Source of the DNA: a virus
IMG/VR virus record: IMGVR_UViG_3300025407_000978
Location: 1 to 56,716 of that record
Length of the DNA: 56,716 nucleotides
Reading direction: 5' to 3' (one strand)
Within the stretch, counting starts at the first letter, position 1; each line of letters opens with the position of its first letter. This document shows, one piece after another, positions 979 to 48,807 of this stretch. The notes below the pieces were generated by a model that was not told the origin of the DNA, ran no database searches, and was given only the letters and a program-made list of their open reading frames with translations. A program made the position numbers and the translations under genes.

Positions 979-2454
979 TTACCGCATAAACCATTGCTTT
1001 ACAATACCTTCAGCAGGCTTATTTCTGATACTTCTGCCTATTGCGGGAAACGTAGGCCCGTTCATTGACATAAAATCGTCTGAAAAATATCCATCTATTT
1101 GTACAATTGATCCTGTAGGAAGAGTAGCCGAATTAATTGTTTCCAACATTGCTTCTATAATGATTGCTTGCTCATTAAATGCAGGAGTAGTATTTAACTC
1201 AATGCAAGTGTTTGAACCAGTTGGGCTGGTTGTACCCATTGGGAATGTTACCCCACCAATGGTATTTTCACACATGTATTCTTCCATGTAACCTGGTTGA
1301 GATAGATAATTTTTACGTGATTGTACGTCTCCATATATTATAAGTGGCTTGTTATATTTTGCCGATAAATCAGTCCAATTGGAAACCATATATGCAGTTG
1401 CGTAATCTTGTTTAACCGTATCAACTGTTAAATTGCTATCTGTACTTGCAGGATTACTTATCCAATATGGATAATTTGCATATGCCATAACATAATCAAT
1501 TTTGGATAAAATATAAGCAGAATTGTCTAACAAGCTATTATCTACAACAAACTTTTTACCAGTGTATACTGATGATACGGATTTAATTATATTTTCGTAT
1601 GCAGTAACAAATTGTTGAATTGATTGCGTGCTACCATCACCTTTATCACTATACAAACATGGACAATCCATTTGCCAAATATCAACATTAAGTGATTGCA
1701 TTGTATTGGCTTGATTTACCATATAAGTTTGTAAAGAATTTAGCCAATAACTATAATTCTGTGTATTACCTGCAGGTGTTGAAATGTTTTGCCCGTTAGA
1801 ATTAACACAGCATAAAATTGCATTTGTAACTTGGACTTTAATTCCTGCCGCGTGTGCAATGTTAACCTCGCTTGCAAATTCAGAATCACTTAATGAGTTT
1901 TTAGTATCAGGTGTAAAAGTATAACTTCCATCATTATTTTGAATTGCATTGTAATAACGTGCAATTTGAACTACATCAACACCTAATGATTTTAATCTTG
2001 TAACTGTTCGGCTAAATTCTGTTACATTGTCTGGTGTTGGACAGGAAGTTGTTATCGATGTATTACTTGTATATGTTGTTTTTGGTGTAATATCGTTTAC
2101 AACAATTGATCTAAGTAAATTCTTATTTAATGAATTGCCGGTTACATATGGTAAAGTTTGAGGTCCATTCCAACTTAGCGGATAAGTTACTACACTATTA
2201 TCAATATCGCAAAATGCATTTGCATCAACTAATGTAACAGTGTTTTGATAACTTGAGGGATAACTTATTTGTGAAACATCTGTGGGTACTGATACAGTAG
2301 GCACAGTAGTAGACACCATATTGTTTGTGCTAGTAGCTACAGTAGTGGTAGTTGAGGTTACTCCCTGTTTACTAACAGGAGTTGTGGTATTATTACTGCC
2401 ACCGCCCCCGCATCCTACTAGAACGGTTAACCCAAAAATAACTAGCTTTTTCAT
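979..2454 (-). CDS. Secreted lipoprotein with a glycoside-hydrolase-like TIM-barrel domain
   Basis: 491 residues. A signal peptide ends in a lipobox (LVGC, Cys15), followed by a glycine patch and a Thr/Val/Ser-rich linker to about residue 65, then a folded domain. Segments such as LKSLGVDVVQIARYY, HAAGIKVQVTNAI and NVDIWQMDCP look like successive beta/alpha units of a TIM barrel, as in glycosidases that track carbohydrate; a Cys-rich CPCL element and the ending RNKPAEGIVKQWF are distinctive. Predicted place: outer membrane or periplasmic face of a Gram-negative host. It has its own sigma70-type promoter at 2484-2512, so it may be an early moron that changes the infected cell surface. A role in superinfection exclusion or glycan trimming is inference; the catalytic acids were not assigned. 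Confidence 0.65.
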   Translation of the reverse strand: MKKLVIFGLTVLVGCGGGGSNNTTTPVSKQGVTSTTTTVATSTNNMVSTTVPTVSVPTDVSQISYPSSYQNTVTLVDANAFCDIDNSVVTYPLSWNGPQTLPYVTGNSLNKNLLRSIVVNDITPKTTYTSNTSITTSCPTPDNVTEFSRTVTRLKSLGVDVVQIARYYNAIQNNDGSYTFTPDTKNSLSDSEFASEVNIAHAAGIKVQVTNAILCCVNSNGQNISTPAGNTQNYSYWLNSLQTYMVNQANTMQSLNVDIWQMDCPCLYSDKGDGSTQSIQQFVTAYENIIKSVSSVYTGKKFVVDNSLLDNSAYILSKIDYVMAYANYPYWISNPASTDSNLTVDTVKQDYATAYMVSNWTDLSAKYNKPLIIYGDVQSRKNYLSQPGYMEEYMCENTIGGVTFPMGTTSPTGSNTCIELNTTPAFNEQAIIIEAMLETINSATLPTGSIVQIDGYFSDDFMSMNGPTFPAIGRSIRNKPAEGIVKQWFMR

Positions 2455-2512: not shown

Positions 2513-2725
2513 CTAACTATGGAACTTTACTTGTGGTAACTTTGTGTCGTCAATTGCTTGGTTTATGATATTAACACAAACTGCCACACATTCATTACAA
2601 ATGGCAATGCCCTTTTCATTTGTTACCAAACGAAAAACTTCGCTTTGTGGTTTACTACAAAAATCACAGTTTACTTCAGTTGTTTGAATTTGTTGTGATT
2701 GTTCATTTTGGGTTACGTCAGTCAT
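2513..2725 (-). CDS. Free-standing ClpX-type C4 zinc-finger protein
   Basis: 70 residues. The core is a CDFC ... CNEC pair with 19 residues between, followed by VAVCVNIINQAI, which matches the N-terminal zinc-binding domain of ClpX (pattern CSFCGK..EV..LI......ICDECV.LC..II). In ClpX this domain dimerises and binds adaptors such as SspB and some substrates. Here it stands alone, with a short polar N-terminus and a short tail and no AAA+ domain. The start overlaps the stop of the previous gene (TAATG) behind a GGAAGAGG site. Family match is from motif spacing; a role as ClpXP decoy or adaptor is inference. Confidence 0.75.
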   Translation of the reverse strand: MTDVTQNEQSQQIQTTEVNCDFCSKPQSEVFRLVTNEKGIAICNECVAVCVNIINQAIDDTKLPQVKFHS

Positions 2726-2862
2726 TATCGTCCTCTTCCTGTTTTACGAACTGTTGGTTTGCCAAATCCTTTACTAGGTTTTGGACCTTTACCTTGTTTA
2801 AAATTGTTTGGGTTAAATCCCGTCTTCTGTGTTGGAATACCCTTGTTCTTTTTGTCTGTCAT
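2725..2862 (-). CDS. Small, highly basic protein (45 aa)
   Basis: A 45-residue frame starting at an ATG at 2862 with a good ribosome site (CAGGAGC) eight bases upstream and ending in TAATG overlap with the zinc-finger gene. The sequence is dominated by Lys, Arg, Gly, Pro and Asn (GKGPKPSKGFGKP, ending RKTGRGR), so it is probably disordered and may bind nucleic acid. Its 5' end overlaps the upstream gene by 50 bases in another frame. Function unknown; translation signals make it likely real. Confidence 0.6.
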   Translation of the reverse strand: MTDKKNKGIPTQKTGFNPNNFKQGKGPKPSKGFGKPTVRKTGRGR

Positions 2863-3274
2863 AGATTTGCTCCTGTGATATCAAATAATCTATTAATGTG
2901 CCGCCATATAACCCTATCATCATGGCAACCTTGCCATCATATACTGTTACTTTTTGATCACCAATATGATATGGGCAGCGCAAAAAACGTCCACAACTTA
3001 AAGTAAATTTATTAATCCAATAATCGTCTAAATATTTTGTATTTAATAAAGTATTGACATCTCTATCAAAAATTGGATAACTATAACTTTCAATACACGC
3101 AATGTCAAAATATCTTTTCCCCTCAAGTGTTAATCGTAGACTATTACCCTGACGTCCAGTTTCAAACCAACTGAATACCATTTTATCTATTGTTTTGGGT
3201 GGCCGTTGATCGCTTGGCAGTTGATCAAATATTGCTGCTACTAATTGATGTTTTAAAGTATTCTGGTTACTCAT
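2813..3274 (-). CDS. Conserved hypothetical phage protein (153 aa)
   Basis: Starts at ATG 3274, overlapping the stop of the preceding gene by 8 bases. Soluble, mixed alpha/beta, with an aromatic-rich middle (YSYPIFDRDVNTLL) and a CGRFLRCPYHIG segment near residues 94-104; no signal peptide or membrane span. The style is typical of conserved unknowns in T4-like marine phages. No function assigned. Confidence 0.6.
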   Translation of the reverse strand: MSNQNTLKHQLVAAIFDQLPSDQRPPKTIDKMVFSWFETGRQGNSLRLTLEGKRYFDIACIESYSYPIFDRDVNTLLNTKYLDDYWINKFTLSCGRFLRCPYHIGDQKVTVYDGKVAMMIGLYGGTLIDYLISQEQIYDRQKEQGYSNTEDGI

Positions 3275-3560
3275 CAGGGTATACGCGCCTACCTGTCGTT
3301 AAGAAAACGACTGAAAACTTATCTGTCTTAAATAGCGCGTTAAGTTTTCTACATAGGTTTCTAGCATGACCTGGATTGCTAAAACTAGTCTTTTTATATT
3401 TTGGCGCATTATCATTGTTAAGATAATGACTACTTTTTAAATTAATAGGCTGATCGTCATAATACACAGACCAAATACCGCTGGCTTCAACGATCTGTTC
3501 AGTCTTATATGTATTTTTATCTACATACTCTAATATGACTTTTGGCTGAGTTCTGCTCAC
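3267..3560 (-). CDS. Hypothetical protein (97 aa), GTG start
   Basis: The frame opens with GTG at 3560, overlapping the upstream TGA by four bases (GTGA), a typical coupled start. The product is basic with a conserved-looking core (SNPGHARNLCRKLNALF) that suggests a short amphipathic helix. It ends 8 bases inside the next gene. No family recognised. Confidence 0.55.
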   Translation of the reverse strand: MSRTQPKVILEYVDKNTYKTEQIVEASGIWSVYYDDQPINLKSSHYLNNDNAPKYKKTSFSNPGHARNLCRKLNALFKTDKFSVVFLTTGRRVYPDE

Positions 3561-3754
3561 TTAAACGTACCGCCTTTAATTTCAACCTGTAAAACCTTGT
3601 CATCTATATTGTTTTTTAAATTATGTAAGTCAATTAATATTGACATAATTTCATCACGCAATCCCCTAGCATCAGTCATAGGCATTACTAAATCTTTTGT
3701 TCGTTTGCTTTCTAGTAATGAGACTTTATCCATGAAATTTTTAACGTGAATCAT
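3557..3754 (-). CDS. Small helical hypothetical protein (65 aa)
   Basis: ATG at 3754, overlapping the upstream stop by 4 bases (ATGA). Mostly alpha-helical by composition (DKVSLLESKRTKDL and LRDEIMSILIDLHNL). It resembles short conserved proteins found in T4-like cyanophages, but I cannot attach a function. The TATAAATA-like string just upstream lies inside the previous coding region. Confidence 0.55.
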   Translation of the reverse strand: MIHVKNFMDKVSLLESKRTKDLVMPMTDARGLRDEIMSILIDLHNLKNNIDDKVLQVEIKGGTFK

Positions 3755-4206
3755 TGTGTATTTATATGTGCCAAGGCTTCAATTTCAGTTTTATAGGGTC
3801 CTTTATAAGGATATCGTTGAATAAAAATGTATTTTGGACAGAATTGTACCTCTTTTACACCATTTTGTTCCACTACAAAGTATCCTGCAGCCTGCAAACA
3901 TTTACTTTTTTCTTCGGTTGTGAACAAATGTAACTTACGTTTGATATCAAATACTGAATTATAGACTTTTTCTGGAGTAGGATACTCTGGGTAGGGCATT
4001 TCTACTTTACTATTATTAGTTTTAATTGGTTCAAAACGAATTTTTACTTTTTCTTTAATTTCTTCAGTATTGTTAAATTGTAAAAAATTGTCATTTAACT
4101 TTACTTCATAACCTGCATTATTGGCAGTTACATTGCCTACTTTCTTTTCACCGTCGGTAACTACCCAATACTGATCTTTAATAATTGGTTTTGCTACAAG
4201 TATCAT
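3751..4206 (-). CDS. Conserved hypothetical phage protein (151 aa)
   Basis: I chose the ATG at 4206, because it overlaps the upstream TGA (ATGA) and has GGAG seven bases before it, over an in-frame codon four residues earlier. The N-terminal 60 residues read as a small beta domain (DQYWVVTDGEKKVGN); the C-terminal half has an FCPKYIFIQRYPYKGPYKT motif. No signal peptide. Function unknown. Confidence 0.6.
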   Translation of the reverse strand: MILVAKPIIKDQYWVVTDGEKKVGNVTANNAGYEVKLNDNFLQFNNTEEIKEKVKIRFEPIKTNNSKVEMPYPEYPTPEKVYNSVFDIKRKLHLFTTEEKSKCLQAAGYFVVEQNGVKEVQFCPKYIFIQRYPYKGPYKTEIEALAHINTQ

Positions 4207-4760
4207 TGTGTACTCCAACTAACTCCAAAAAACATACGCATATAATTATGCTCTAATGTGTGTTTAATTTTGTTTATCCAATGTTCTTCATCACGTGAAT
4301 AAACAATCAATCTATTGGGTTTAGGTAATACTTCTGCGCTATTAACACAAAACTCACCGCCCCAATCATCTTCCCAATAATTGTGAGTGTATAAAAAAGT
4401 TGATAGACTTTTTTCAGGTGTACTGTTACGCACAATACCATCAAAATGTTTTCCAACTAAATGATTTTTATCGCCATATTGATACCAAACACTATATGCC
4501 ATTGGATCAACATAACCTAAAGTCAATAATGTCTCACGCATTTTTTCTATTGCAGGAACAATCTCAATACCTAGCAAAACTTTACTTTCAGTATAATCGT
4601 GATCATTGCTAGACGTTCTAATTCTAACTGCTTGATTTTCAGAAGGAAAATTTGTATGTCCTATATCCTGACGTAACCCGTGTTTATAACGCTTAAGCAT
4701 TTTTTGATTAAGCGGGACAAATTGAGTACCTAGTAAAAAATCGTCAAAATAACTAATCAT
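4203..4760 (-). CDS. 2-oxoglutarate/Fe(II)-dependent oxygenase
   Basis: 185 residues, the length of a minimal prolyl-4-hydroxylase-like oxygenase. The iron-binding HxD is His105-Phe-Asp107 (GKHFDG). The distal His is probably His160 (EEHWINKI) and the co-substrate Arg is Arg175 ahead of FFGVSW. The segment WEDDWGGEF before a PNRLIVY strand is typical of the family. Such enzymes hydroxylate protein side chains, nucleobases or small molecules with 2-oxoglutarate and O2. Substrate unknown; four oxygenase-like genes occur in this window. Confidence 0.8.
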   Translation of the reverse strand: MISYFDDFLLGTQFVPLNQKMLKRYKHGLRQDIGHTNFPSENQAVRIRTSSNDHDYTESKVLLGIEIVPAIEKMRETLLTLGYVDPMAYSVWYQYGDKNHLVGKHFDGIVRNSTPEKSLSTFLYTHNYWEDDWGGEFCVNSAEVLPKPNRLIVYSRDEEHWINKIKHTLEHNYMRMFFGVSWSTQ

Positions 4761-4763
4761 ACA

Positions 4764-5072
4764 CTAAATTTTCTTTAAATATTTGAATAAATCATTTTTA
4801 TTTTTTGGAGTCCAGTATTTACCCTTAGGTCCACATTTATCTTTTTCTCCTATAAATCTTTCTGCTCGTTCGTTATAACACTTTTCATAGTTTCTATTAG
4901 GTTTTTCAACAACTGTGCCAACTACAGGGCTATGTGTAACAACAGGGGTAGCATTAGTTCTTGTACATACATATTCAAAATCTTCATCTTTAGCAAAAAA
5001 TAGTATGTTGCCAAACTTAGTCATAAAAGGAATTTTGCCGTACTTACAATCTTTACAAAAATATTTACTCAT
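4764..5072 (-). CDS. Small cysteine-containing hypothetical protein (102 aa)
   Basis: ATG at 5072, overlapping the exonuclease stop by 8 bases. It has an N-terminal CKDC pair at residues 6-9 and Cys at about 36, 65 and 80, so it may bind a metal, though spacing fits no zinc finger I know. The C-terminus is Lys-rich (NKNDLFKYLKKI). Likely translated together with the oxygenase downstream. Confidence 0.55.
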   Translation of the reverse strand: MSKYFCKDCKYGKIPFMTKFGNILFFAKDEDFEYVCTRTNATPVVTHSPVVGTVVEKPNRNYEKCYNERAERFIGEKDKCGPKGKYWTPKNKNDLFKYLKKI

Positions 5073-6066
5073 GTAATATACCTATATATGGAGAGTTTAA
5101 CCATTTAGCAAACGTATCTGATTGTTCGCTAATTTTGTTTAATTCGTACTTGCCACAGAATCGCATAAAATGTACACCCACTTGAGGTACTGTGGTTGTG
5201 CGTACATCATTCTTAATTGTTTCATCAAACAACACCTTAAACTCGTCAGGTTGTGCGGTTAAATCAATTAACACACGATTACGTTCATAATCATCACGCA
5301 CACGATGCTCAACACCATCGTGATCAGACCAACGCTGTAGCATCATATTGTTCCAATTGAAACCTTGCTTATGACGATCAGCATATGCCTCAATCAATCC
5401 AATTTTGTTTTTGCTACCTTTAGTACGTACACCTGGATATGCACTAAACACGTTGTCAGTGCTGTCACCGCGCATACACTTTTCAAATAGTAAAAATTGT
5501 GGGTCACCTAATAGTTTTGGCTCTTTTGTTTTCTTGTCAACAATGAGTCGTCCTTTCTCATCGTGATAGCCTTCAAGTGTAATATATTGATTGCTTACGC
5601 CATTATATTGTGTAACACGCTCATTAATCAATTGTACATAGTCAGTATCGCTACTGATAATAACATGTTCATCATCTGGGTGTAATGCGATAAAACGCGC
5701 AATCATATCGTCAGCCTCACCATTAGGATGACGCAACACACTAGTATTAGTTTTCTCACGCAAGTAATTGGTAAACATTTCATATGTTTCCCAAAACATC
5801 TTGTTTTCTTCAATCTCACTTTCAGTCATAGCACTTTCGTCAAGTTTACGATTAGCCTTGTAGGGCTTATAGTAATCTTTACGCCAGCTACGACCCTCAA
5901 GACAGAACACAACATGGTCAATGCCAAATCGTTTTACTGCTTGATTGACACTACTTAGTGTAAGATGTAATGCCATTCCAACCTTTTCCCATGTTTCAGT
6001 ATTGCGACTGGCAATATGTCGGGCACGGAAGAATGTATTTGCTGTATCAATTAATGCGTATTTCAT
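5065..6066 (-). CDS. rnh: 5'-3' exonuclease / RNase H (FLAP family, T4 rnh-like)
   Basis: 333 residues, near T4 RNase H (about 305). It removes RNA primers and flaps from lagging-strand fragments. Metal-binding acidic positions of the PIN-like fold are visible: Asp7 (LIDTANTFFRA), the EADDMIARF helix, SSDTDYVQL, and GDSTDNV followed by the helix-hairpin-helix-like PGVRTKG. A helical arch with basic residues (RKDYYKPYKANRK) lies near residues 62-75. Preceded by a sigma70-like promoter at 6078-6104, consistent with early expression. Confidence 0.9.
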   Translation of the reverse strand: MKYALIDTANTFFRARHIASRNTETWEKVGMALHLTLSSVNQAVKRFGIDHVVFCLEGRSWRKDYYKPYKANRKLDESAMTESEIEENKMFWETYEMFTNYLREKTNTSVLRHPNGEADDMIARFIALHPDDEHVIISSDTDYVQLINERVTQYNGVSNQYITLEGYHDEKGRLIVDKKTKEPKLLGDPQFLLFEKCMRGDSTDNVFSAYPGVRTKGSKNKIGLIEAYADRHKQGFNWNNMMLQRWSDHDGVEHRVRDDYERNRVLIDLTAQPDEFKVLFDETIKNDVRTTTVPQVGVHFMRFCGKYELNKISEQSDTFAKWLNSPYIGILHE

Positions 6067-8414: not shown

Positions 8415-9009
8415 TTATACCAAAGAAGGATACATCGGCGTAACAAATAATCCAATCCGACGACTTAATGAGCACCGAAATGCTTCAAAGAACCGTAATG
8501 ACAAAAATCCTTATTTCGGTAGAATTCTCAACAAATATAAAGACACCGTGATTCAAACTATATTAATAAGTGATACTGAAGAAAATTGCTATAAGCAAGA
8601 AGAACTTCTGCGACCGAAAAAAAATATAGGTTGGAATGCTAATAAGGGAGGAAATAAACCTCCCTCTAAATTAGGGTGGAAACCTAATGAGGCGACACTC
8701 AAAAAAAGATCAGCATCTTTAAAGAGAATCCCGAGAAATGAAATTTGGAAGAAAAACTTATCAGAAGCCAAACAAGGTGCTAAAAACGGTATGTATGGAA
8801 AGAAAATACCATGCAGTGAGACTAGAGCCCTAAGCATTTCTCAATCTAGAAAAACCACACTAGATAAGTATCGTTTAATGTCTCAAGAAGAATTTTCAAT
8901 TTGGGTAAAGTCTCAAAACCTACATAGAAAAGACGGTGCCGTAAATTCTAACGTGACTAGAGCAATACTAGCCAGAAGCGAAAATCCCAAAGATTATTAT
9001 AAAAATTAG
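8362..9009 (+). CDS. GIY-YIG homing endonuclease with NUMOD3-like motif
   Basis: 215 residues from the ATG at 8362, preferred because AGAGGAG lies about nine bases upstream. The N-terminal YLYWIHLPEH ... KEGYIGVTNNPIRRLNEH is a GIY-YIG nuclease core with Arg in the RRLNEH helix and Glu in CYKQEELL. The middle has NGMYGKKIP, a NUMOD3 DNA-binding element, preceded by Lys-rich linkers. Typical of free-standing T4-type seg endonucleases. It is alone on the plus strand, ends with a 4-base tail-to-tail overlap with uvdE, and sits behind a late box. Confidence 0.85.
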   Translation: MTIYTHYLYWIHLPEHTDYTKEGYIGVTNNPIRRLNEHRNASKNRNDKNPYFGRILNKYKDTVIQTILISDTEENCYKQEELLRPKKNIGWNANKGGNKPPSKLGWKPNEATLKKRSASLKRIPRNEIWKKNLSEAKQGAKNGMYGKKIPCSETRALSISQSRKTTLDKYRLMSQEEFSIWVKSQNLHRKDGAVNSNVTRAILARSENPKDYYKN

Positions 9010-10031
9010 TCCTGAAGGGTTTTCCAGTACTGGTGCAATCTAAAACTAGCCAAATTTTTGGCTTTTGCTTCAACCATAACGTCGGCCCACTGCCAATGTC
9101 CATATGCCCAGTCATTTACTGCATCGTTCCACATATAATCGGAGTGTGCTCGCATCTTTTGCTTGTTTAAGCCTTGTTCTAGCAAGAGTTGATGATTGGG
9201 CAACGTTTTTGTAGAATGAGTTGATAGATATTCTTCGCGACTTACGCTGTAGTGAATGACAGGACGCACACCACGCCAGCTATCAACGATACGCTTAATA
9301 CGATCATCATTCGGTTCAATATACTCGCCGGTCATTACATAGTGATGGTGTATATCCAAAACCAAAGCACAATCATTGACCAGCTCTAAACTAGCATCTA
9401 GTCCCCATGACATCTCTTCATTTTCGATTGTGATAGCGTTACGTGCCTCGGGGCTTAGTCGTTTGTACGCATCACGAATACCTTGTGGACCTTTGCGACC
9501 ACTGATATGTACGTTGATTTTGATGTCCTGAAATGTTTTACCATAGCCCATCCAACGTGCCATGTCAACGTGCATTTCAAATTCTTCAATACTTTTGTCT
9601 ACAACCTCAGGGCGATCACTAGCTAACACAACGAATTGGTCAGGATGAAAGCTAAGACGTACATCATTGGCACGTGCAGTTTCACCAATTGGTGCCATCC
9701 AATGTTCAAGTAGATTTTGAATATATGGGGTTTTCCAAAAGTCACGGTAGTCTTCATGTGTGTAAAAACTAAACATATCGCTGGTAAGACGAACCATACG
9801 TAGTTCAGGAGGCAAAGTTGATATCCTTTTAACAAGATTATGTGTATTCATAATATTGTTTTTTGCAACATCAATGATTTTTTGCTCTACAACATCACGT
9901 TTGTTACGCTTTGCCCATGCCAAAGTAGTACCACCTGTATTGAATCCTTCAATACTGGCAATCTCGCCCTTTTTGTTGATTTCAGCTAGTTTACAAGCGA
10001 AACCAATACGTTTTACATTTTGATTGTGCAT
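9006..10031 (-). CDS. uvdE: UV damage endonuclease UvdE
   Basis: 341 residues, a usual length. UvdE nicks 5' of pyrimidine dimers and other lesions with divalent metals in a TIM barrel. Family signatures seen: N-terminal RIGFACKL, VRLSFHPDQFVVLAS, the metal-site ITIENEE and LVLDIHHH, and VIHYSVS. Likely protects sunlight-exposed phage DNA or repairs it on entry. The start at 10031 lies only about two bases after the expected start of the promoter at 10040-10068 and has no ribosome site, so the mRNA may be leaderless. Confidence 0.93.
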   Translation of the reverse strand: MHNQNVKRIGFACKLAEINKKGEIASIEGFNTGGTTLAWAKRNKRDVVEQKIIDVAKNNIMNTHNLVKRISTLPPELRMVRLTSDMFSFYTHEDYRDFWKTPYIQNLLEHWMAPIGETARANDVRLSFHPDQFVVLASDRPEVVDKSIEEFEMHVDMARWMGYGKTFQDIKINVHISGRKGPQGIRDAYKRLSPEARNAITIENEEMSWGLDASLELVNDCALVLDIHHHYVMTGEYIEPNDDRIKRIVDSWRGVRPVIHYSVSREEYLSTHSTKTLPNHQLLLEQGLNKQKMRAHSDYMWNDAVNDWAYGHWQWADVMVEAKAKNLASFRLHQYWKTLQD

Positions 10032-14088: not shown

Positions 14089-14934
14089 TTATGTACCCCA
14101 AGCGTTGCGGAAAAGAGGTACCTGAAGTCTATCACTATAACGCCAACCACGTTTCATGGCTGCTAGTGCTACATTCTTAGCGTTTAAGTTATAAACACTT
14201 TCAACACCACCAACAGGCATTAGATATACATGACCTTTGAAACCTGCGTCACGATACTGTTTAACTGCTCGTTCTGCATCAACAATATCTTCTTCTGTTG
14301 CTACAACAAACTTAAGATATGCTGTACCTACTCTTTCATAATCACGTACAACCTCAGGTTTAATCGCATCATTCCAACTCTCACCACTTGCTGGGAGTTT
14401 AGCACTAACACTGAATGTAACTTCTCTAGATTTAAAGTTACCATTAAACTGCCACATACGCAAGTAATGATAGAAGTCACTGGATAATTTTTGAGTTCCG
14501 TTAGTTTCAAAAGTAATTTCTTTTAATCCTGACATACTAGGATGATTAAGCAATTCTGGATATGCTCGTTGCCAACCTAATAATGGTTCTCCACCTGTAA
14601 TAACTAAGTGTTCGTCACGCCATTCTTTGTGCGGAAGTAACTCCGTAATCTGTTGTACAATGTTATCAGTAGTGAGCATAGGACTAAGATGCTTAAAACG
14701 AACGTCCCAGCTAGCATAGCTATCACAACCTGTACTAACCAAAGGAAGGGATTTGTAGTCTGTATATTGACTGGGATTAATGTTCTCAGCCTCTGCACTT
14801 AATTCTCCTCTAGGCATACCAAATCCGGCACACTTAAAGTTACAGCCGAATGTTCTTAGGAAGATACTGGGCACACCCATATATCCGCCTTCACCCTGAA
14901 TACTATAAAATAATTCTGCTACTTTTATACTCAT
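14089..14934 (-). CDS. queE: 7-carboxy-7-deazaguanine synthase QueE (radical SAM), with insertion
   Basis: 281 residues. QueE turns 6-carboxytetrahydropterin into 7-carboxy-7-deazaguanine (CDG). Seen: N-terminal FYSIQGEGGYMGVPS (substrate loop), ITGGEPLLGWQ (SAM-binding GGE) and FETNGT. The cluster Cys motif is unusual: Cys31-x3-Cys35, then about 34 residues before the third candidate Cys70 (STGCDSYASWD), instead of the usual Cx3Cx2C. The GCDSYASW stretch corresponds to WCDTxY in ordinary QueE, so the insertion lies between the second and third Cys. Directly behind a consensus sigma70 promoter. Works with QueD and FolE in this window. Confidence 0.9.
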   Translation of the reverse strand: MSIKVAELFYSIQGEGGYMGVPSIFLRTFGCNFKCAGFGMPRGELSAEAENINPSQYTDYKSLPLVSTGCDSYASWDVRFKHLSPMLTTDNIVQQITELLPHKEWRDEHLVITGGEPLLGWQRAYPELLNHPSMSGLKEITFETNGTQKLSSDFYHYLRMWQFNGNFKSREVTFSVSAKLPASGESWNDAIKPEVVRDYERVGTAYLKFVVATEEDIVDAERAVKQYRDAGFKGHVYLMPVGGVESVYNLNAKNVALAAMKRGWRYSDRLQVPLFRNAWGT

Positions 14935-17117: not shown

Positions 17118-17543
17118 TTAGTTGACCTCTACATTTACACTACACTTACGTGTTTCTTCAATTTTAACTTTAACAAGTGTTACACCTGTGCCTTTCAACA
17201 TCATTGGGCCAACTGTATTGATTAAATAATCGCCCATGTTTTCTGCTGTTGGATTAAAGTCTACAACTACTGTACCTTCTGGGTCTAACTCTTTAAGAGT
17301 GTTTGACCATGGATCTTGACTCCATACTAAAAACTTGTGATCCCAGTTGTCTTCTAACCATACACAAAGTTTTTCTTTAATCACACTAAAGTCCATAACT
17401 CGACCAATATTGTCTAATGATGGAGCCTCCACTGTAAAATGAACTCTATAGTTATGCCCATGTAAATGCGCACACTTACTTTCATGTTGATAGACTCTGT
17501 GTCCTGTACTGAAATCGTGATATCTTTCTGCTTGTATTATCAT
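17118..17543 (-). CDS. queD: 6-carboxy-5,6,7,8-tetrahydropterin synthase QueD
   Basis: 141 residues, typical length. Converts dihydroneopterin triphosphate to 6-carboxytetrahydropterin. Zinc ligands His15, His28 and His30 (FSTGHRV, LHGHNY), catalytic Cys24 (SKCAHLHGH), DHKFL, NPTAENM and EETRKCSV are all present. ATGA overlap with the Smr gene. Second step of the CDG pathway after FolE. Confidence 0.93.
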   Translation of the reverse strand: MIIQAERYHDFSTGHRVYQHESKCAHLHGHNYRVHFTVEAPSLDNIGRVMDFSVIKEKLCVWLEDNWDHKFLVWSQDPWSNTLKELDPEGTVVVDFNPTAENMGDYLINTVGPMMLKGTGVTLVKVKIEETRKCSVNVEVN

Positions 17544-26686: not shown

Positions 26687-29401
26687 TTAACCAAATGAAA
26701 ATAATGTATCAAATGTGCTATTTGTATCTGTAGAACTTTTTAAATCCCAATTCAATACGCCAAGTAAGTTGTCAATTTTTTTATCGACTAGTGTGTTTTC
26801 CATTTCTAAATCATCAAATGGCAATTCAATAAACCATTTAGGCAATCTTAATTCATCTACTGGATACGCAATACTTGTAAAGTTTAATGGGTTGTTGCGT
26901 AGTTTACAAACAACTACCTTCATACCATCAACAATCTTCATACTATAATTGTCCCCATTTACTCTACGCAGATAGTTCCAATTCAATGCTCCGCGAACAT
27001 GTCCCGGCATGTTTGCTTTTCCTGTACTGCTATTGGCTTCTTTTTCGCCATACATAGTAAGATTGTTTACAGACTTTGGACTACCCTTTGTCCAACTATC
27101 TTGTTGACTAAGCATGTTTTTAAAGTCTTTGATTTTTTCAATTACTTGTTCTTTATTACTACCAGCCAATACACTTTCAAGTACATCCATTAAGAACTCT
27201 TGAACATACTTTGGAGTATCTGCTCGTTTAAGATCAAGACCCATTGCTTTGATATTACCACGTTTACCGTTTACATCTAATCTTTTGCCTTCTTTATCAA
27301 AGATATTGATAGCATAGCGTTTCTTTGTAATGAATAAACTACGATCACCAATTAGTTCGCGTCCTGCTTTGATGATTTCTCCGTTCTTTCTTGGCGCATG
27401 GAATGCTCGTTCCATGAAGCTGGGAAAAGTAGCGTTGGTCTGTTCAGCAATGCTATCATAAAGTTGGATAACATTTTCTTTAGTCCACTCCAATTCACCA
27501 TTATCTATTTGCTCCTTAAGTATTGTATATGCGCTAAAGTAACAGCTATCAGTATCACCATAAACAATAGCTTGACCTTCGTGATTGTATTCGCCTGTTG
27601 CAATTTCATTTATAGTACTCATCATATGTCTAACAATCTGACGACCACTTAATGTTACGCTTTGACCAATACGTTTGTCATAAAAACGACAGTGTTCATT
27701 CAACAATGCTCCATAAGCACTGTTCAATAAAATTTTACGAACCAATTGACGTTTATCCCAATACGCACGTTCTTCGGGTGTAGTAGACTCTTTAAGTTTC
27801 TTTTGCATGACTTTACGATCACTATACCATCGTGATAATAGTCCGGGAATTACGCCTTCATTGTCATATCTAAAAATTGTACCGTTAGCACTTAGAATAT
27901 ATGGTTTATGACTATCAAATATCAACTTCCATACTTCTGCCGCGCTTTTTGTTTCAGTGCGTCCATCTGCATAATCAATTGTGAGTTCTGTGCCCCGTTC
28001 TTGATTCATAACGCTAGTATATTCTAGTGCACCAAATGTTCCTTCCCATAGTTTACTGCCAGTTTCAATATCGCTTTCGTCTTCTTTATATCGTGCTTTT
28101 TTGCTGGCTAATTCACGACCCTTATCAAGCATATATTGATCAGATAATATTGGTCTTAGTTGACCAACAATTGTTTCTGGAGCCATGTTTAATGCTCGAA
28201 TCACACTGGGATACAGACTGTTAATATCAACTGCGCCTACCCATTCATGTATGCCACGTTTAGGATTGGCGACAAACGCACCAGCTGCTGGACTTGTTTC
28301 TGTTTTATTTTCGTCACGCTTTTTCTTATCTGGAATTACAAGCCCACGCTCGTGTGCCTCGTTCATAATAGCCATTTCAATCATTGCTACAGAACCCATA
28401 ACAGTTGGCAACAATACAGTATTTTCATGTGCTAGTTGATTTGCCAATTCTAAGAACTGTAGTTTCTTGTCAATCTTAACAAGCAACATTGTATCCTGAC
28501 GATTGTATTCTAAGAATCTTTTGAAGTCTTTATTGTAAAGTTGGTCAAGTGTACCTTCATATTGAGTTTTGTTTTCACCAACTTCCATTTCACCAATAAA
28601 GTCTAGTTTATAACTATGGCGACTTTCATAGTTGTACTTCTTATACAACTGTAGATAGTCCATGTGTATACGACCAACCAAATCATAAGTTGTTTCAACT
28701 TTACCAAATCGTTCATATTCACGTGCTTTTGGAAGCTGACCAAGCAAACAGAATTTGCGTGTGTCATCTTTGCTCATTACACGTGTTACACGATTGACAA
28801 GATAGGGAATATCGTAACCTTCTGAGTTCCAACCACTGAGTACGTCTGCGTCTTCGATTAGTTTGAAGAATGCCTCAAACATTTCAATTTCACTGCGAAA
28901 CATTATACAATTATCAAATTCATCGATAATATCCTGTGCAGTGTCATCACTCATACTCTTTGGTGGTATGCATAATGTTACAAGTTGATCTAACCAAGTC
29001 AAATACAAACTAATTGCTGTGACTTTATTAAATGGATCGTTAGTTGGGCTAAAGCCTTTTTCTGGATCAAAATCTACTTCAATATCGAAAAATACTGTGT
29101 GTAGTTTTGGCGCATCAACTTTTAGATAGTGTTCGCTAAGACAGCGAAACACTACGTTTACATCGCTTTCAAATATCTTTTTATTGCCATGTATACGTCT
29201 TTCTTTTTCAAATTCAGCTTTTTTACGACTGCTGAATCTACTGACAGGATCTCCATACATACTACGATACTTGCCTTTTGGATCGGCATAGTACAATACA
29301 TAGTTAGCAGGATACTCGTTGTAAGTTCGCTTGCCGTCTTTACGTTCTACAACAAATATCCTATCAGTTTGTCTATCGTGTAATGCGTCAATGTAAGACA
29401 T
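26687..29401 (-). CDS. 43: DNA polymerase, family B (T4 gp43-like)
   Basis: 904 residues (T4 gp43 is 898). 3'-5' exonuclease: FFDIEVDFDP near residue 113, LSGWNSEGYDIPYL, and YNRQDTMLLV. Polymerase: VDINSLYPSVIRALN near 395, VRKILLNSAYGALLNEH and YGDTDSCYF near 615. All catalytic Asp are present, so it should be an active proofreading replicase. The C-terminus FDTLFSFG carries the clamp-binding tail as in T4 (F-x-x-L-F). Immediately downstream of dsbA. Confidence 0.97.
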   Translation of the reverse strand: MSYIDALHDRQTDRIFVVERKDGKRTYNEYPANYVLYYADPKGKYRSMYGDPVSRFSSRKKAEFEKERRIHGNKKIFESDVNVVFRCLSEHYLKVDAPKLHTVFFDIEVDFDPEKGFSPTNDPFNKVTAISLYLTWLDQLVTLCIPPKSMSDDTAQDIIDEFDNCIMFRSEIEMFEAFFKLIEDADVLSGWNSEGYDIPYLVNRVTRVMSKDDTRKFCLLGQLPKAREYERFGKVETTYDLVGRIHMDYLQLYKKYNYESRHSYKLDFIGEMEVGENKTQYEGTLDQLYNKDFKRFLEYNRQDTMLLVKIDKKLQFLELANQLAHENTVLLPTVMGSVAMIEMAIMNEAHERGLVIPDKKKRDENKTETSPAAGAFVANPKRGIHEWVGAVDINSLYPSVIRALNMAPETIVGQLRPILSDQYMLDKGRELASKKARYKEDESDIETGSKLWEGTFGALEYTSVMNQERGTELTIDYADGRTETKSAAEVWKLIFDSHKPYILSANGTIFRYDNEGVIPGLLSRWYSDRKVMQKKLKESTTPEERAYWDKRQLVRKILLNSAYGALLNEHCRFYDKRIGQSVTLSGRQIVRHMMSTINEIATGEYNHEGQAIVYGDTDSCYFSAYTILKEQIDNGELEWTKENVIQLYDSIAEQTNATFPSFMERAFHAPRKNGEIIKAGRELIGDRSLFITKKRYAINIFDKEGKRLDVNGKRGNIKAMGLDLKRADTPKYVQEFLMDVLESVLAGSNKEQVIEKIKDFKNMLSQQDSWTKGSPKSVNNLTMYGEKEANSSTGKANMPGHVRGALNWNYLRRVNGDNYSMKIVDGMKVVVCKLRNNPLNFTSIAYPVDELRLPKWFIELPFDDLEMENTLVDKKIDNLLGVLNWDLKSSTDTNSTFDTLFSFG

Positions 29402-43311: not shown

Positions 43312-45363
43312 TTATTTTGATGTTGCTCTGAATACACCGTCCCAATTATCTGGGACATTACCTTCCATACGCTCAAGCATTAATTCATAATACTTGTGCA
43401 TTTCGCCTTTCCAGCCCTTAGCTAGTAAGCCATCATTTTTTATACCATTGATATAAAACTTGGCACTCTTCCAATCACCTTTGCGATATGCTTTTAAGAA
43501 TTTTTCATGTTGTGACATTGCTGTAGCATCGTCAAATGGGGCAACTGTGTAAATTTTTACAGGTTCGGTTTTACCTTTTACAGCAATTAAATCTAATTCA
43601 ATAACTGTAAATTCATCAGATACTAATTCTGCTGTTCTTGGTCCGAGGATGATTTTGACTCCATAGGGCTTTGACTGTCCTTCCAATCTACTAGCGAGAT
43701 TGACACCGTCCCCGAGACATGTGTAGTCGAAACGTTGCGTGCTACCCATGTTACCAACAACCACTGTATCGGTATTAATGCCAAGACCCATACCAAAAGC
43801 AGGCACTCCTTCTTTACTAATTTCTTCATTAAATTTCTCCAAGTCTTTTAACATTGCTAGACCTGTGCGCAATGCGTTTTTAGCGTGGTCTGCATCATCA
43901 AGTGGAGCGTTCCAAAATGCCATCTGCGCATCGCCGATGTACTTGTCAAGAGTTCCGTTGTTCTCTAAAATCTTGGCAGTCATTGCTGTCATATAACGAT
44001 TCATGATCTTTGTTAGACCTTGAACGTCTTTACCATAATGTTCGCTGATAGTTGTGAAGCCGCGAACATCAGTAAACATAATTGACAGTTCTCTTGATTC
44101 GCCGCCAAGTGCTAACAACTCTGGATTCTTTTGTAACTTCTCAACCATTGCTGGCGACAAGTAAGTGCCGAACTGTTTCTTTATTTGTTGCTTCTGCAAA
44201 AATTCTGAGACAAACTTGACACCATAGGCATGGAGTGACACAAGGATGATAGCTCCGATGGGGAAAGTGATATCAAATAGTAAAAGATGATTAGTAAAAG
44301 CCCAGTGGCTAGCATACGCAATACCACAAACGATAGCAACAACCGATCCCAAACCGACATATACATACCTCGTTAATAGTAATAATACTATACCTAACAC
44401 CAATATAGCAAGTAATTCGGCGCCGTCAGCATAATCTGGGCGACTAATCACAACACCATTCATCATAGTGTTTAATAAATGTGCTTGTAGATAATGTGGA
44501 TACACTGCGCCAATACTTGTTGGTACTGGGTTACTAATGCCCGCAGCAGTTGGGCCCACAATTACTACACCGCCATTAAAATCTTTTGGCAAATGTGACA
44601 AACTACTAATATTAAAACTTTGACTGTAATCTACCCAAACACGACCCAAATTATCTGTTGTAATAGGACCATATTGAGGTATGCGCATTTTTTCAACGCC
44701 AAGTTCATTGAGTTTAATTTGTGTTGTAGTGTCACCACTTGCTACACGCAATATTTCCATAACAAGACTTGGATATAAGTTACCATCTACACTTGTAATA
44801 AGTGGCATTCTGCGTGTAACACCGTCAACTTCTGACAATGTATTAACTGTACCAATGCCCACAGCATTTTGTTCAAGTACAGGTATGTTAGCAATAATGC
44901 CTGGGTACTTTACAATGCGATCTTGAAAGTCACTGTTGATTACAGCAGTACCAGGTTTTCTTGGAATATTTTTAGTTTTATCACTTGGCACGTTTACTAG
45001 TACAACAGGATGTTGATACATAGCACTTGCTAAAGCACTGTCGCCATTTAATCTATCAGGTTCACTAAACATAATGTCTAATACTACTAGACCTGCGTTT
45101 CTAGCATATAACTCGTTTACGATTTTGGCATATTCAGTTCGTGGCAATGGCCATTGTCCATACTTGTTAAGTGCTTCTTCGTCAATGTTTACGATAGTAA
45201 TAGGACTATCAATTAACGCACTGGGTTCTTTGTTGGCAATAAGCGTATCAAAGTAACGCAAACGTATGCTTTCTACAAAATGTGTATCGATTACTCGTAC
45301 AGTTAGTACAAGTGCTAATGTGAGTAAGGCAGTCCAAGGACTGAGTAGTATTTTCTTTAACAT
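43312..45363 (-). CDS. CHASE2-transmembrane-class III nucleotide cyclase
   Basis: 683 residues. An N-terminal membrane helix (WTALLTLALVLTVRVID), a CHASE2 sensor to about residue 310 (ITIVNIDEEALNKYGQWPLP and LVVLDIMFSEPD are characteristic), three membrane helices at about 318-395, then a cyclase domain: SIMFTDVRGF with the first metal Asp near 421, DKYIGDAQMAFWNAP with Lys and the second Asp near 479, and FDYTCLGDGVNLASRLEG with the adenine-region and transition-state Asn/Arg near 552. All key residues for adenylate cyclase are in place. CHASE2 faces the periplasm, where FecR and curlin proteins of the same operon would be. AAGG precedes the ATG. Confidence 0.92.
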   Translation of the reverse strand: MLKKILLSPWTALLTLALVLTVRVIDTHFVESIRLRYFDTLIANKEPSALIDSPITIVNIDEEALNKYGQWPLPRTEYAKIVNELYARNAGLVVLDIMFSEPDRLNGDSALASAMYQHPVVLVNVPSDKTKNIPRKPGTAVINSDFQDRIVKYPGIIANIPVLEQNAVGIGTVNTLSEVDGVTRRMPLITSVDGNLYPSLVMEILRVASGDTTTQIKLNELGVEKMRIPQYGPITTDNLGRVWVDYSQSFNISSLSHLPKDFNGGVVIVGPTAAGISNPVPTSIGAVYPHYLQAHLLNTMMNGVVISRPDYADGAELLAILVLGIVLLLLTRYVYVGLGSVVAIVCGIAYASHWAFTNHLLLFDITFPIGAIILVSLHAYGVKFVSEFLQKQQIKKQFGTYLSPAMVEKLQKNPELLALGGESRELSIMFTDVRGFTTISEHYGKDVQGLTKIMNRYMTAMTAKILENNGTLDKYIGDAQMAFWNAPLDDADHAKNALRTGLAMLKDLEKFNEEISKEGVPAFGMGLGINTDTVVVGNMGSTQRFDYTCLGDGVNLASRLEGQSKPYGVKIILGPRTAELVSDEFTVIELDLIAVKGKTEPVKIYTVAPFDDATAMSQHEKFLKAYRKGDWKSAKFYINGIKNDGLLAKGWKGEMHKYYELMLERMEGNVPDNWDGVFRATSK

Positions 45364-45373
45364 GATCGCAGCC

Positions 45374-45946
45374 TTAATGTCTAATATAACTATAACTACC
45401 GCAAATAAGGCAACTTATAGTCATGCTGCCACTGTTACTTACTGTAGGATTGTCCTGTATTACAGTAACTGTTGCACCGCTGCTTCCATTGAGTGTTAGA
45501 CTAAAACTTTTATCTGCTCCTGAATTTCCACTCTGTGTAACATTAACTGTATTAGCACTATTTAGCGTTCCTGCTGTAGTTGACAGTATGAAGGTGTTGT
45601 TACTTGCTCCTGATTGAGTGACACTAATGCCATTGGCATCACCGACAACGCCATTGATTTTTGCTACATTATTGCCTGAGCCACCTTGTATAACATTAAA
45701 TGTATTGTTAATACCACTTTGTAAATCTATGCCAGCAATCAATGATCCAGTACCATTTTGTGTGACAGTAAACGAATTGCCGTCAACCGGGCTCATAAAG
45801 CCAGCAGTGATTTTGATATAGTCACCGCTATATTCTTGACTGACATTATATGTGTTATTGTCACCAACCTGATTGATATAGATGTTTGGGTTATTCTGAG
45901 CAAAACAAGTTAATGGAAACAATAATAGTAATAGTAAGTATTTCAT
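45374..45946 (-). CDS. Secreted curlin-repeat protein 2
   Basis: 190 residues. Signal peptide with cleavage near residue 17 (TCFA). About six curlin-type repeats with the Q-x-G spacing: YINQVGDNNTYNV, FTVTQNGTG, FNVIQGGSGNN, ISVTQSGASNN, VNVTQSGNSG and VTVIQD. In CsgA/CsgB such repeats stack as beta-strands into amyloid fibres. A Cys pair near the end (CLICG) is unusual. Likely exported through CsgG of this operon. Confidence 0.75.
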   Translation of the reverse strand: MKYLLLLLLFPLTCFAQNNPNIYINQVGDNNTYNVSQEYSGDYIKITAGFMSPVDGNSFTVTQNGTGSLIAGIDLQSGINNTFNVIQGGSGNNVAKINGVVGDANGISVTQSGASNNTFILSTTAGTLNSANTVNVTQSGNSGADKSFSLTLNGSSGATVTVIQDNPTVSNSGSMTISCLICGSYSYIRH

Positions 45947-47076
45947 TAGTTTTGCCTCAATATAATTGTACTACTTTTGCCGTCATTGACACGGTTCTTA
46001 ATAGTCACGCCATTTTCAATCATTGTTATTGTAACACGATCTTGCGTTGTGGTAGTAACACTTTGGACATCGCTGCCGTCATCACGACTTAATGTTACAT
46101 TTATTGGGGTGACTAATTTAGTCACATTACTACTTGGGAACCAATCTGGCAATAATTGATTTTCTGGATTTAACATATTAGATAATAATGCTGCTGCGTC
46201 CATACGTAACTGCTCACTTAATATATGAAAGATATCATCTAAAAAGTTTTGCTGTAACAATGAAATAGCCAATGGATCATCACCCAATGGATTATAATTT
46301 GCTAGTTCATTTTTTAAGAAATCTTGTTTAAGATAATCAATATCTAACATGTCACCATTTTGTCTAATTACATTGGTGTCTTTGCTAACTTCCTGTTGTT
46401 TGAATTCTTTGGGTGGGCTAACGATCAATAAGTTATTAATCTGATTAGGATTCAAATTAAGTACAACAGGTTTACTGGGAGCAAGTTGTCTACTAACAAC
46501 TTTTGTACCCATAAAGGGTTTATCTAATGTAACGCTACCTGCGTCATTATAAACATCAATAACACCTGTCTTACAATCGGTTTCTACATTAATATAGTTT
46601 GCAGGACAACTTGGCAATAGTATAATACTACTCTCGCCAAACTCATCTACAACTGCGCTGAAATCTGTACCACGAACTGCCACAGTGGCTGCGGGTGTGT
46701 TAATGTTCACACTGTTAGGATTGTTATGTGCTATAGCGCCACTAGCATAGCGTACTGTGCCAGCAGCAAACTTTAATCCTAGTTTGTTGGGAGTTTTACC
46801 TTTGGGATCATAAACAAAATCATCAATAACAAGTTTGCTATTTTCATTGACTTGTACTTTAGTATCATCAACAAATGTAATATCGGCAATACCTAATGTT
46901 GTTTTAATAGTATCATTCATTTCAACACCAGTGCCCTTAACACCCGGCAATGTGTTTTTATCTCTTACAATTTGTGGAACTGTTTTAATTTGATTTGTAA
47001 TACTACCCACACTACCATAGATGTGGGGTGAGAATATCAATAATAATAACCCCAACCCCACATATCTTTTAGTCAT
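45946..47076 (-). CDS. Periplasmic FecR-domain protein
   Basis: 376 residues. A signal peptide (LGLLLLIFSPHIYG) then a FecR domain: VKGTGVEMNDTIKT, ADITFVDDTKVQVNENSKL and VAVRGTDFSAVVDEFGES, the hallmark blocks of periplasmic FecR proteins. The C-terminal 180 residues (TTTTQDRVTITMIENGV) are beta-rich. In bacteria FecR proteins are often linked to CHASE2 sensors; here the partner gene is two genes away in the operon. Possibly an anchor or signal input (inference). Confidence 0.85.
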   Translation of the reverse strand: MTKRYVGLGLLLLIFSPHIYGSVGSITNQIKTVPQIVRDKNTLPGVKGTGVEMNDTIKTTLGIADITFVDDTKVQVNENSKLVIDDFVYDPKGKTPNKLGLKFAAGTVRYASGAIAHNNPNSVNINTPAATVAVRGTDFSAVVDEFGESSIILLPSCPANYINVETDCKTGVIDVYNDAGSVTLDKPFMGTKVVSRQLAPSKPVVLNLNPNQINNLLIVSPPKEFKQQEVSKDTNVIRQNGDMLDIDYLKQDFLKNELANYNPLGDDPLAISLLQQNFLDDIFHILSEQLRMDAAALLSNMLNPENQLLPDWFPSSNVTKLVTPINVTLSRDDGSDVQSVTTTTQDRVTITMIENGVTIKNRVNDGKSSTIILRQN

Positions 47077-47084
47077 TATAACCT

Positions 47085-47942
47085 CTAGTGTGTATTTGAA
47101 CTAATGGTAAATGTATTACCGTTGCCTGTACTGTGTAAGTTTATAGTACTATTAAAACTAGTACCTAACTGTGTAATGTTTGCGATGTTACTACTACCAG
47201 TTAAACTAATTACAAAGGTATGCCCACCTGAGCCTGTGCCACCTTCTTGATCTAATGTTACCTCGTTGCTTGCGCCTACAATTGTAATACTTGCTGATCC
47301 ATTGTTGTCAGTAGTTGCGCTGGTTGTGCCACTAAGATTTACCGCAGTAAGACCTATAGCACTTCCGCCTATACCTTGATTGACAACCACACTATTATTA
47401 CCACCACCTGAGATGTCAATATTTTGTGTTATATTGCTACCATTGATAGTAGATATCACACTGTTATATGAACCACCTGCAGTTGTAATTGTACTGCTGT
47501 TCTGACTACCAAGCATAAAGAATTTCAACCCTGAATAATTACCTGTTAATGTAGCAGATAAGTTATTGCTTTCGCTTTGACCAGTACCGTCGCCGTTACT
47601 GTCAATAATCGCATTGCCATTATTACCTGTTAAACTATAGGTGTAATTATTACCATTGCTAACTCCATTTGCTGTAGTTGTAGCAATACCCATGCTTAAT
47701 GTATTACCTGTACCAACTTGGTTTATTGTAACATTATTGTTGTCGCCATTAATAATCGCAGGATTGGTACTACCATTACCTGCTCCTGGCAACCCTTGTA
47801 AAATATTACCCGCACCATCTTGCGTTACACTTACAGTAGCATTACTACCAGTTTGACTGATATAGATACTATTGTCACCTGCAACTGCTGTAACAGTTAT
47901 TAATAATCCTAAAACTAAGGCAATTAATTTACTGAACTTCAT
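47085..47942 (-). CDS. Secreted curlin-repeat protein 1
   Basis: 285 residues. Signal peptide cleaved near Ala21 (TAVA). Repeats: YISQTGSNATVSVTQDGAGN, VTINQVGTGNTL, VVVNQGIGGS, VTLDQEGGTGS and ITQLGTSFNSTINL, with N- and G-rich links, fitting a curlin-like beta-helical amyloid subunit longer than CsgA (about 150). One base before csgG and directly followed by FecR. Confidence 0.8.
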   Translation of the reverse strand: MKFSKLIALVLGLLITVTAVAGDNSIYISQTGSNATVSVTQDGAGNILQGLPGAGNGSTNPAIINGDNNNVTINQVGTGNTLSMGIATTTANGVSNGNNYTYSLTGNNGNAIIDSNGDGTGQSESNNLSATLTGNYSGLKFFMLGSQNSSTITTAGGSYNSVISTINGSNITQNIDISGGGNNSVVVNQGIGGSAIGLTAVNLSGTTSATTDNNGSASITIVGASNEVTLDQEGGTGSGGHTFVISLTGSSNIANITQLGTSFNSTINLHSTGNGNTFTISSNTH

Positions 47943-47943
47943 T

Positions 47944-48807
47944 TTATTTTTCCTCAGACACTTTATTATTATTATTGGTTGTGTCTACATGTTTATCCCA
48001 CCAAGATTCTTCTGGGGGTGGCATTGGATATTTGAAATCCCAAACCCCTTTATGTTCACCCTCTTTTATCAACTCTACAACAGCAGCCTCGATTGCGGTC
48101 TTAACTGCTAATGTACCTGGCTCGTTTATTGTCAAGCCAGTTTCCAACTCAAACGACTGTGTTCCCTCTCTGAAGAATCTTAAGACAGCAACACTATCTG
48201 CCGTTGAGTATATTGTCTTAGTAACTGTAACTGCTACTAAGACTTTACCTGTAGCAACACTTACTGCTCTGAGACTAATAACTACTATGTCCTTACTGTA
48301 CTGTGTACTAGGACCAATGCCTAACCAACGATATGCGTAGCCACCACTTACTGTGCTGCTATCATATCCTACAATACCACCTTCTAATATTATTCCTGCG
48401 AATAGCATTGGCGGCAATTGTTGAGCATCTTTACCTTCATAAGCATCACGCATTTGTTTAATAATGGTGCGCTCTTTAATTAAGTCATCAACATTTGTTC
48501 TTTCTACAACATCGAACCATTGACCTTTGCCTACATTTTGTAATGCTTGTATTAAGAATGGTTCTGCACCTTGTGTAACAGCACTGCTAAAACTAGCATA
48601 TGTGCCACTGTTTCTGCGTTGACCTGTTAAATCTGTAAATTTATAAACGCTTACTATAACTTTAGGACTTGCTGGAGGAGGTATAATATCAAACTCACGC
48701 TGCAACCTATTAGGAGCGACAGTAGGCAATTCCTCTTTAAACATTTTCTGTTGTAACGCACATCCAGTTAATGATAGCGTTAGTAATAATATTAATAACT
48801 TTTTCAT
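47944..48807 (-). CDS. csgG: Curli secretion channel CsgG
   Basis: 287 residues, near E. coli CsgG (277). Lipobox LTGC with Cys16. Signature blocks: VSVYKFTDLTGQRRNSG, FSSAVTQGAEPFLIQAL, WFDVVERTNVDDLIKERTII, LLFAGIILEGGIVGYDSST, and RWLGIGPSTQY. CsgG assembles a nine-fold outer-membrane pore that releases curli subunits. All signature regions are conserved, so a pore should form. Overlaps csgF by four bases. Confidence 0.95.
   Translation of the reverse strand: MKKLLILLLTLSLTGCALQQKMFKEELPTVAPNRLQREFDIIPPPASPKVIVSVYKFTDLTGQRRNSGTYASFSSAVTQGAEPFLIQALQNVGKGQWFDVVERTNVDDLIKERTIIKQMRDAYEGKDAQQLPPMLFAGIILEGGIVGYDSSTVSGGYAYRWLGIGPSTQYSKDIVVISLRAVSVATGKVLVAVTVTKTIYSTADSVAVLRFFREGTQSFELETGLTINEPGTLAVKTAIEAAVVELIKEGEHKGVWDFKYPMPPPEESWWDKHVDTTNNNNKVSEEK

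Follow-up and report, generated by a model that had tools for sequence, protein, structure and literature searches.

Why would a phage encode the zinc finger of ClpX as a protein of its own? The question is raised by a small gene in the window, the whole 56,716-nucleotide stretch of viral DNA analysed here. The original prediction, made from the letters of this DNA, held that its product consists almost only of the C4 finger of ClpX, lacks the AAA+ ring, and corresponds to the part of ClpX on which adaptors dock. The last element is well founded in the literature, the zinc-binding domain (ZBD) of ClpX being a documented docking site for adaptors and substrates (PMC7804408).

A solo ClpX finger and its conservation

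The open reading frame spans exactly 2513-2725 on the minus strand, starts with ATG and encodes a 70-residue protein, P0001, whose translation is MTDVTQNEQSQQIQTTEVNCDFCSKPQSEVFRLVTNEKGIAICNECVAVCVNIINQAIDDTKLPQVKFHS.

2513-2725, minus strand: solo ClpX zinc-binding-domain protein P0001, 70 residues (PF06689, 47.4 bits; AlphaFold2 core within 0.5-0.8 Å of 2ds5/2ds8)
2558-2671, minus strand: C4 finger core, ligands Cys20, Cys23, Cys43 and Cys46; Phe22/Ile53 correspond to Phe16/Ile46 of E. coli ClpX, and Val49 stands for Leu42

A profile search with the Pfam model zf-C4_ClpX matched residues 19-56 (38 residues; E 1.8e-12) at a score well above the curated cut-off of 27 bits, bearing out the proposed identity. 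Outside the finger lie a variable N-terminus of 15-18 residues and a C-terminal tail of 13 residues, so 'almost only finger' was an apt description. The frame ends at its stop at 2513 without an AAA+ module (Walker A/B, IGF loop), and the NCBIfam clpX model scored 29 bits, below its threshold of 371, in agreement with the predicted lack of a ring. Pfam and PDB sequence searches did not find an SspB fold in P0001, the ClpX finger being the sole domain present. The best PDB matches by sequence were all ClpX N-domains (1ovx, 2ds5 and full ClpX chains). An AlphaFold2 model, built from 15 solo fingers, has a core at pLDDT > 90 (residues about 20-50) that superposes on the ZBD crystals 2ds5/2ds6/2ds8 at 0.5-0.8 Å over 39-41 residues; for 2ds8, the E. 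coli ZBD-XB complex, the fit is 0.5 Å over 41 residues. The small size of the domain kept Foldseek E-values against ClpX modest (about 0.004-0.03), and ClpX stood clearly ahead of RING and GATA fingers. A DNA-binding role was rejected, as the GATA and RING matches were far weaker than those to ClpX. A role as a defence gene was likewise set aside: PADLOC returned no match for P0001 and weak, chance-level matches for the solo variants.

Identical copies of P0001 occur in four other IMG/VR contigs (L001-L004), but because their DNA is 99.8-100% identical they offer no independent test of coding. Two more distant forms are informative. The finger of L016/L017 is 68% identical to P0001 in aligned protein (59% by tblastn) and 63% in DNA, so the protein is conserved over the DNA; that of L207, in the same slot, is 50% identical (44% by tblastn). 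In the alignment the zinc ligands C20, C23, C43 and C46 are invariant across these three divergent variants. The gene is a conserved coding gene and more than a chance frame, and the variants appear to be under purifying selection. The ATG of P0001 overlaps the stop of the gene upstream (ATGA at 2725), an overlap also found in L207, and the two genes are adjacent in L016; from this arrangement P0001 appears to be translationally coupled to its neighbour.

A variable slot in a jumbo-phage genome

The DNA polymerase encoded at 26687-29401 is 43-50% identical to those of jumbo phages Phosso, Atu_ph07, CBB, 121Q and GAP32, and gene order in the window follows that of freshwater jumbo-phage contigs, the longest of them 335 kb, whose DNA polymerase is about 80% identical. 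The window is probably a fragment of a larger virus genome. The surroundings of the finger comprise the following features.

2813-6066, minus strand: collinear block of 153-, 97-, 65- and 155-residue hypothetical proteins and a 5'-3' exonuclease (5065-6066); conserved, and fixes the position of the slot
2725-2862, minus strand: basic protein of 45 residues directly upstream of the finger, whose stop overlaps the finger's ATG
979-2454, minus strand: GH113-like lipoprotein, the gene after the finger; variable cargo, with other genes there in L207

The order exonuclease-155-65-97-153-45 residues is conserved among relatives and the slot after it is variable; collinear phages without the finger also have a homologue of the 45-residue protein ahead of the slot. 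Among 36 contigs with both the block and the downstream DNA ligase, a solo finger was present in three (L013, L204, L207) and absent from 33, some of which are near-duplicates. The L207 finger is only 44% identical (tblastn) in a contig whose nuclease and ligase are 98-100% identical, and a hypervariable arms-race locus was considered on this account. It was rejected, and no specific diversification is claimed for the finger, because neighbouring genes of the block are mosaic too (57-69%).

Several other genes of the window merit mention. The GH113-like glycoside hydrolase encoded at 979-2454 carries a Thr/Ser-rich linker and a signal of the lipoprotein type. Further genes, all on the minus strand, encode a 2OG-Fe(II) oxygenase (4203-4760), a UvdE UV-damage endonuclease (9006-10031) and a Dps/ferritin-like protein (54348-54788). 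A radical SAM gene (14089-14934, minus; QueE-like by eye) and a PTPS/QueD-like gene (17118-17543, minus) suggest, by their similarities, deazapurine modification of DNA or tRNA. A curli-like secretion cassette (45374-49280, minus) encodes CsgG, CsgF, two curlin-repeat proteins and a FecR-domain protein, and beside it lies a gene for a CHASE2-adenylate/guanylate cyclase (43312-45363, minus). The curli and cyclase genes are 96-100% identical in the relative G004, against 93% for its DNA polymerase and 60-90% for several flanking genes, a pattern that suggests recent spread of cassette and cyclase.

Retained pocket, altered helix and added tail

Like the ClpX N-terminal ZBD (1ovx, 2ds5, 2ds8), P0001 has four cysteines, a predicted treble-clef fold and the Phe16/Ile46 pocket; it differs in having no AAA+ module, in the replacement of Leu42, Tyr34 and charged helix residues, and in its extra tail. 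In E. coli ClpX (numbered with the initiator Met left out of the count), Phe16 and Ile46 form a hydrophobic adaptor side pocket that serves trigger factor and overlaps the site for lambda O; binding of SspB and RssB has been reported for the same region (PMC7804408). The solo variants retain Phe and Ile/Val at these positions. Leu42, by contrast, is nearly invariant in ClpX (24/24 sequences from Pseudomonadota, 26/27 from the lineage and 60/62 from other phages) and has given way to V, E or Q in the solo variants; the position is relaxed in other phage solos too. A basic residue of ClpX is replaced by Phe31 and an acidic one by Ala/Ser48. The loss of Leu42 and the changes at charged helix positions may affect homo- or hetero-dimerisation.

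The tail is the second departure from ClpX.

2516-2551, minus strand: C-terminal tail ID-x-x-K-[LI]-P-x-[LV]-[KR]-..-H, found in the three solo variants and not in ClpX; resembles the SspB XB tail RPALRVVK

The SspB C-terminus RPALRVVK was confirmed in 8et3_Y. This XB peptide docks on the dimeric ZBD of ClpX, and free XB alone activates ClpX (PMC12373786). With its P-x-L-[KR]-like C-terminal peptide P0001 may resemble SspB, whose substrate-binding fold it lacks. An end-anchored P-x-[LV]-[KR], a short pattern picked after being seen, occurs in 3/3 solo variants; the broader P-x-[LIVM]-[KR], also chosen after the fact, ends 2 of the 608 C-termini in the window and its relatives. The tail is predicted by AlphaFold2 to be disordered. 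Because the pattern is post hoc and the three variants are related, the likeness to XB is a lead and no test. The loss of Leu42 together with the gain of a conserved tail indicates that the solo variants are not simple domain copies.

The changes at Leu42 and in the helix give weight to the main rival of the view, developed below, that P0001 acts on ClpX: the treble-clef finger might have been co-opted for another partner, protein or nucleic acid, in a role apart from ClpX. Treble-clef fingers are versatile, the helix surface has changed along with Leu42, and the neighbouring genes encode hypothetical proteins or act in DNA metabolism. The kept adaptor-pocket residues and the XB-like tail speak against such a role, as do the best structure and sequence matches, which are all to ClpX with RING and GATA far behind, and we regard it as doubtful.

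Relationship to bacterial and phage ClpX

Identity of the solo cores is 40-48% to E. coli ClpX, against a mean of 28-34% to the ClpX of their own lineage. Profile scores were 35-41 bits for Pseudomonadota ClpX, fetched with the Pfam model, against 29-38 bits for lineage ClpX; this preference is smaller than that obtained with a bacterial set fetched by solo-derived patterns, which is biased. The finger thus seems nearer to bacterial than to lineage ClpX, by a modest preference. A mixed set of other-phage ClpX reached 42-55 bits, above both, but patterns derived from the solos had been used to collect this set as well, so these scores do not fix the origin of the finger.

The preference argues against P0001 being a truncated copy of a phage clpX gene. 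Such a decaying fragment would account for the shared domain family, and clpX does lie near the slot in relatives, but its position differs, the finger is less like lineage than bacterial ClpX, and it is conserved as a protein with its own tail and start. Truncation was ruled out on position, similarity and conservation, and a decaying fragment has next to no credence.

The same comparison bears on the idea that P0001 is a decoy for host ClpXP, as the original prediction suggested, or a sponge for its adaptors. A free finger would pair with host ClpX N-domains or soak up adaptors, and adaptor-dependent degradation of phage proteins would be lowered. The greater nearness of the core to bacterial ClpX is in keeping with this, and there is a precedent in mycobacterial ClpC2, a partial homologue of ClpC proposed to be a molecular sponge (PMC10030653). 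Against it, the lineage commonly has its own ClpXP, the Leu42 equivalent is lost, and the ClpX compared is that of E. coli and other Pseudomonadota, which may not be the host's. Moreover, removal of HsdR by ClpXP can help phages (PMC12707154), so inhibition would not be the sole benefit. We consider a host decoy rather unlikely.

ClpXP encoded by the lineage

A gene for full ClpX (about 400 residues) was found in 36 lineage contigs, most often 3-9 kb beyond the DNA ligase; a few of these copies run off the end of their contig. Of the complete copies, 34/34 have the GYVG pore loop together with Walker A and Walker B, and 30/34 a recognisable IGF loop for ClpP docking. ClpP was found in 11/12 larger records checked, the exception (G031, 230 kb) also lacking ClpX; records with the ClpX/ClpP pair are G016, G018, G024 and G029 (sources of L177-L188), and also G097 and G099. 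The lineage clpX is adjoined by a DnaK-like gene and by a small gene that by eye resembles one for ribosomal protein S21. The window ends before this locus would be reached. Contig L204, 99.9% identical to the window, continues beyond window base 1 as far as the ligase, after which clpX could follow; L206 ends 3 kb beyond the ligase, the furthest that any contig of the window's population goes.

Given a lineage that usually has full ClpX, with ClpP in nearly all larger records, phage ClpX may be the partner of P0001. If it regulates the phage's own ClpXP, or serves it as an additional N-domain, the finger would widen or switch substrate choice during infection. This is favoured by the regular position of clpX past the ligase and by the sister contig L204 that reaches that ligase. 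However, a solo finger and ClpX were not seen together in any record. In each of G016 (335 kb), G097 (349 kb) and G099 (364 kb), all large records, the one ClpX finger lies within ClpX, and there is no solo finger. Neither clpX nor clpP was found in the 27 kb after the ligase in the close relative L209/G056 (ligase 78%). Lineage ClpX also has a ZBD of its own, to which the solo finger is not particularly similar, and we regard this role as unlikely.

Solo fingers in other phages and related systems

Phages that are not related to one another, and phage-plasmids, also carry solo ClpX fingers, for which NCBI uses the product name 'ClpX C4-type zinc finger protein'. P0001 matches PHROG families phrog_6797 (E 1.7e-8), phrog_5259 and phrog_12435, mostly without known function; no paper on proteins named 'ClpX C4-type zinc finger' came up in a full-text search of the literature. 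In bacterial chromosomes, with contig-end fragments set aside, a solo finger was found in 1/150 Pseudomonadota, as a short open frame of 134 residues, and in 0/41 Bacteroidota. P0001 thus appears to join a known kind of phage protein without functional study. The solo fingers of phages and prophages (P88, D6/P1-like, PdC23, Alize) resemble it in being short, in having zf-C4_ClpX as the only recognisable domain and in lying in early or accessory gene regions; they are 29-49% identical to it, and many have a 40-80-residue N-terminal helical extension, whereas P0001 is minimal, with a conserved P-x-[LV]-[KR] motif in its tail. A different architecture occurs in a 172-kb record (L021, 4198-4908; contig shared with L285), where a 236-residue phage protein joins an N-terminal ClpX finger to an uncharacterised C-terminal part.

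Phage G reportedly has ClpX and ClpP genes, a jumbo-phage Clp example that is full-length and not an isolated finger. Atu_ph07, which by DNA polymerase belongs to the same broad jumbo group as the window, encodes ClpX, ClpA and ClpS (PMC6102473), likewise pointing to phage control of Clp proteolysis, but through full-length enzymes or ClpS. Mycobacterial ClpC2, like P0001, is a motor-less partial homologue of a Clp unfoldase and a proposed sponge; unlike P0001 it consists of an unrelated domain, is a host gene and binds antibiotic (PMC10030653).

A proposed trans-acting ligand of ClpX

Domain identity, predicted fold, kept pocket residues, XB-like tail and a Clp-rich lineage together support the reading of P0001 as a trans-acting ligand of ClpX N-domains that would occupy, or compete for, adaptor docking. 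Near-absence from bacterial chromosomes and recurrence in unrelated phages were also counted for it. Against it stand the changes at Leu42 and the charged helix positions, the shortness, after-the-fact choice and predicted disorder of the tail, the 33 collinear contigs without a solo finger, and the ClpXP-bearing relatives, which do not need one. We judge the chances of this reading to be evenly balanced. A ClpX N-domain detached from its motor would have been retained as a separate protein acting in trans; it would bind the N-domains of the ClpX ring, or else the peptides by which adaptors dock on ClpX, and would alter which substrates reach ClpXP, either by competing with SspB/RssB-type adaptors or by tethering something to the ring. 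Binding to ClpX, its effect, whether block or redirection, and the partner, host or phage, are what we infer from these comparisons. Lambda O, a phage replication protein, is a ClpXP substrate, which provides a motive for blocking ClpXP. Degradation of HsdR by ClpXP, which can help phages, provides a motive for using it (PMC12707154). A host-ClpXP decoy, a regulator of phage ClpXP and an adaptor are all compatible with a trans-acting ligand, and because the first two are special cases of it, the confidences given to them overlap.

It is also conceivable, if very improbable, that a ZBD-plus-XB protein switches in trans between host and phage ClpXP. Its tail would dock on ClpX N-domains as SspB does and its own finger would capture adaptor tails, so that degradation would be re-routed where the cell holds two ClpXP machines.

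Significance

P0001 appears ordinary in kind, since solo ClpX fingers are widespread in phages without known function; what is new is its framing by the lineage's ClpXP and by the conserved tail, and its function is putative. With three diverged variants in one slot of a mostly ClpXP-bearing lineage, the question becomes testable with small soluble proteins. Restriction enzymes (HsdR), stress regulators and proteins of phage replication are all under the control of ClpXP, and a natural protein consisting of the domain on which its adaptors dock would offer a compact way to steer the choice of substrates.
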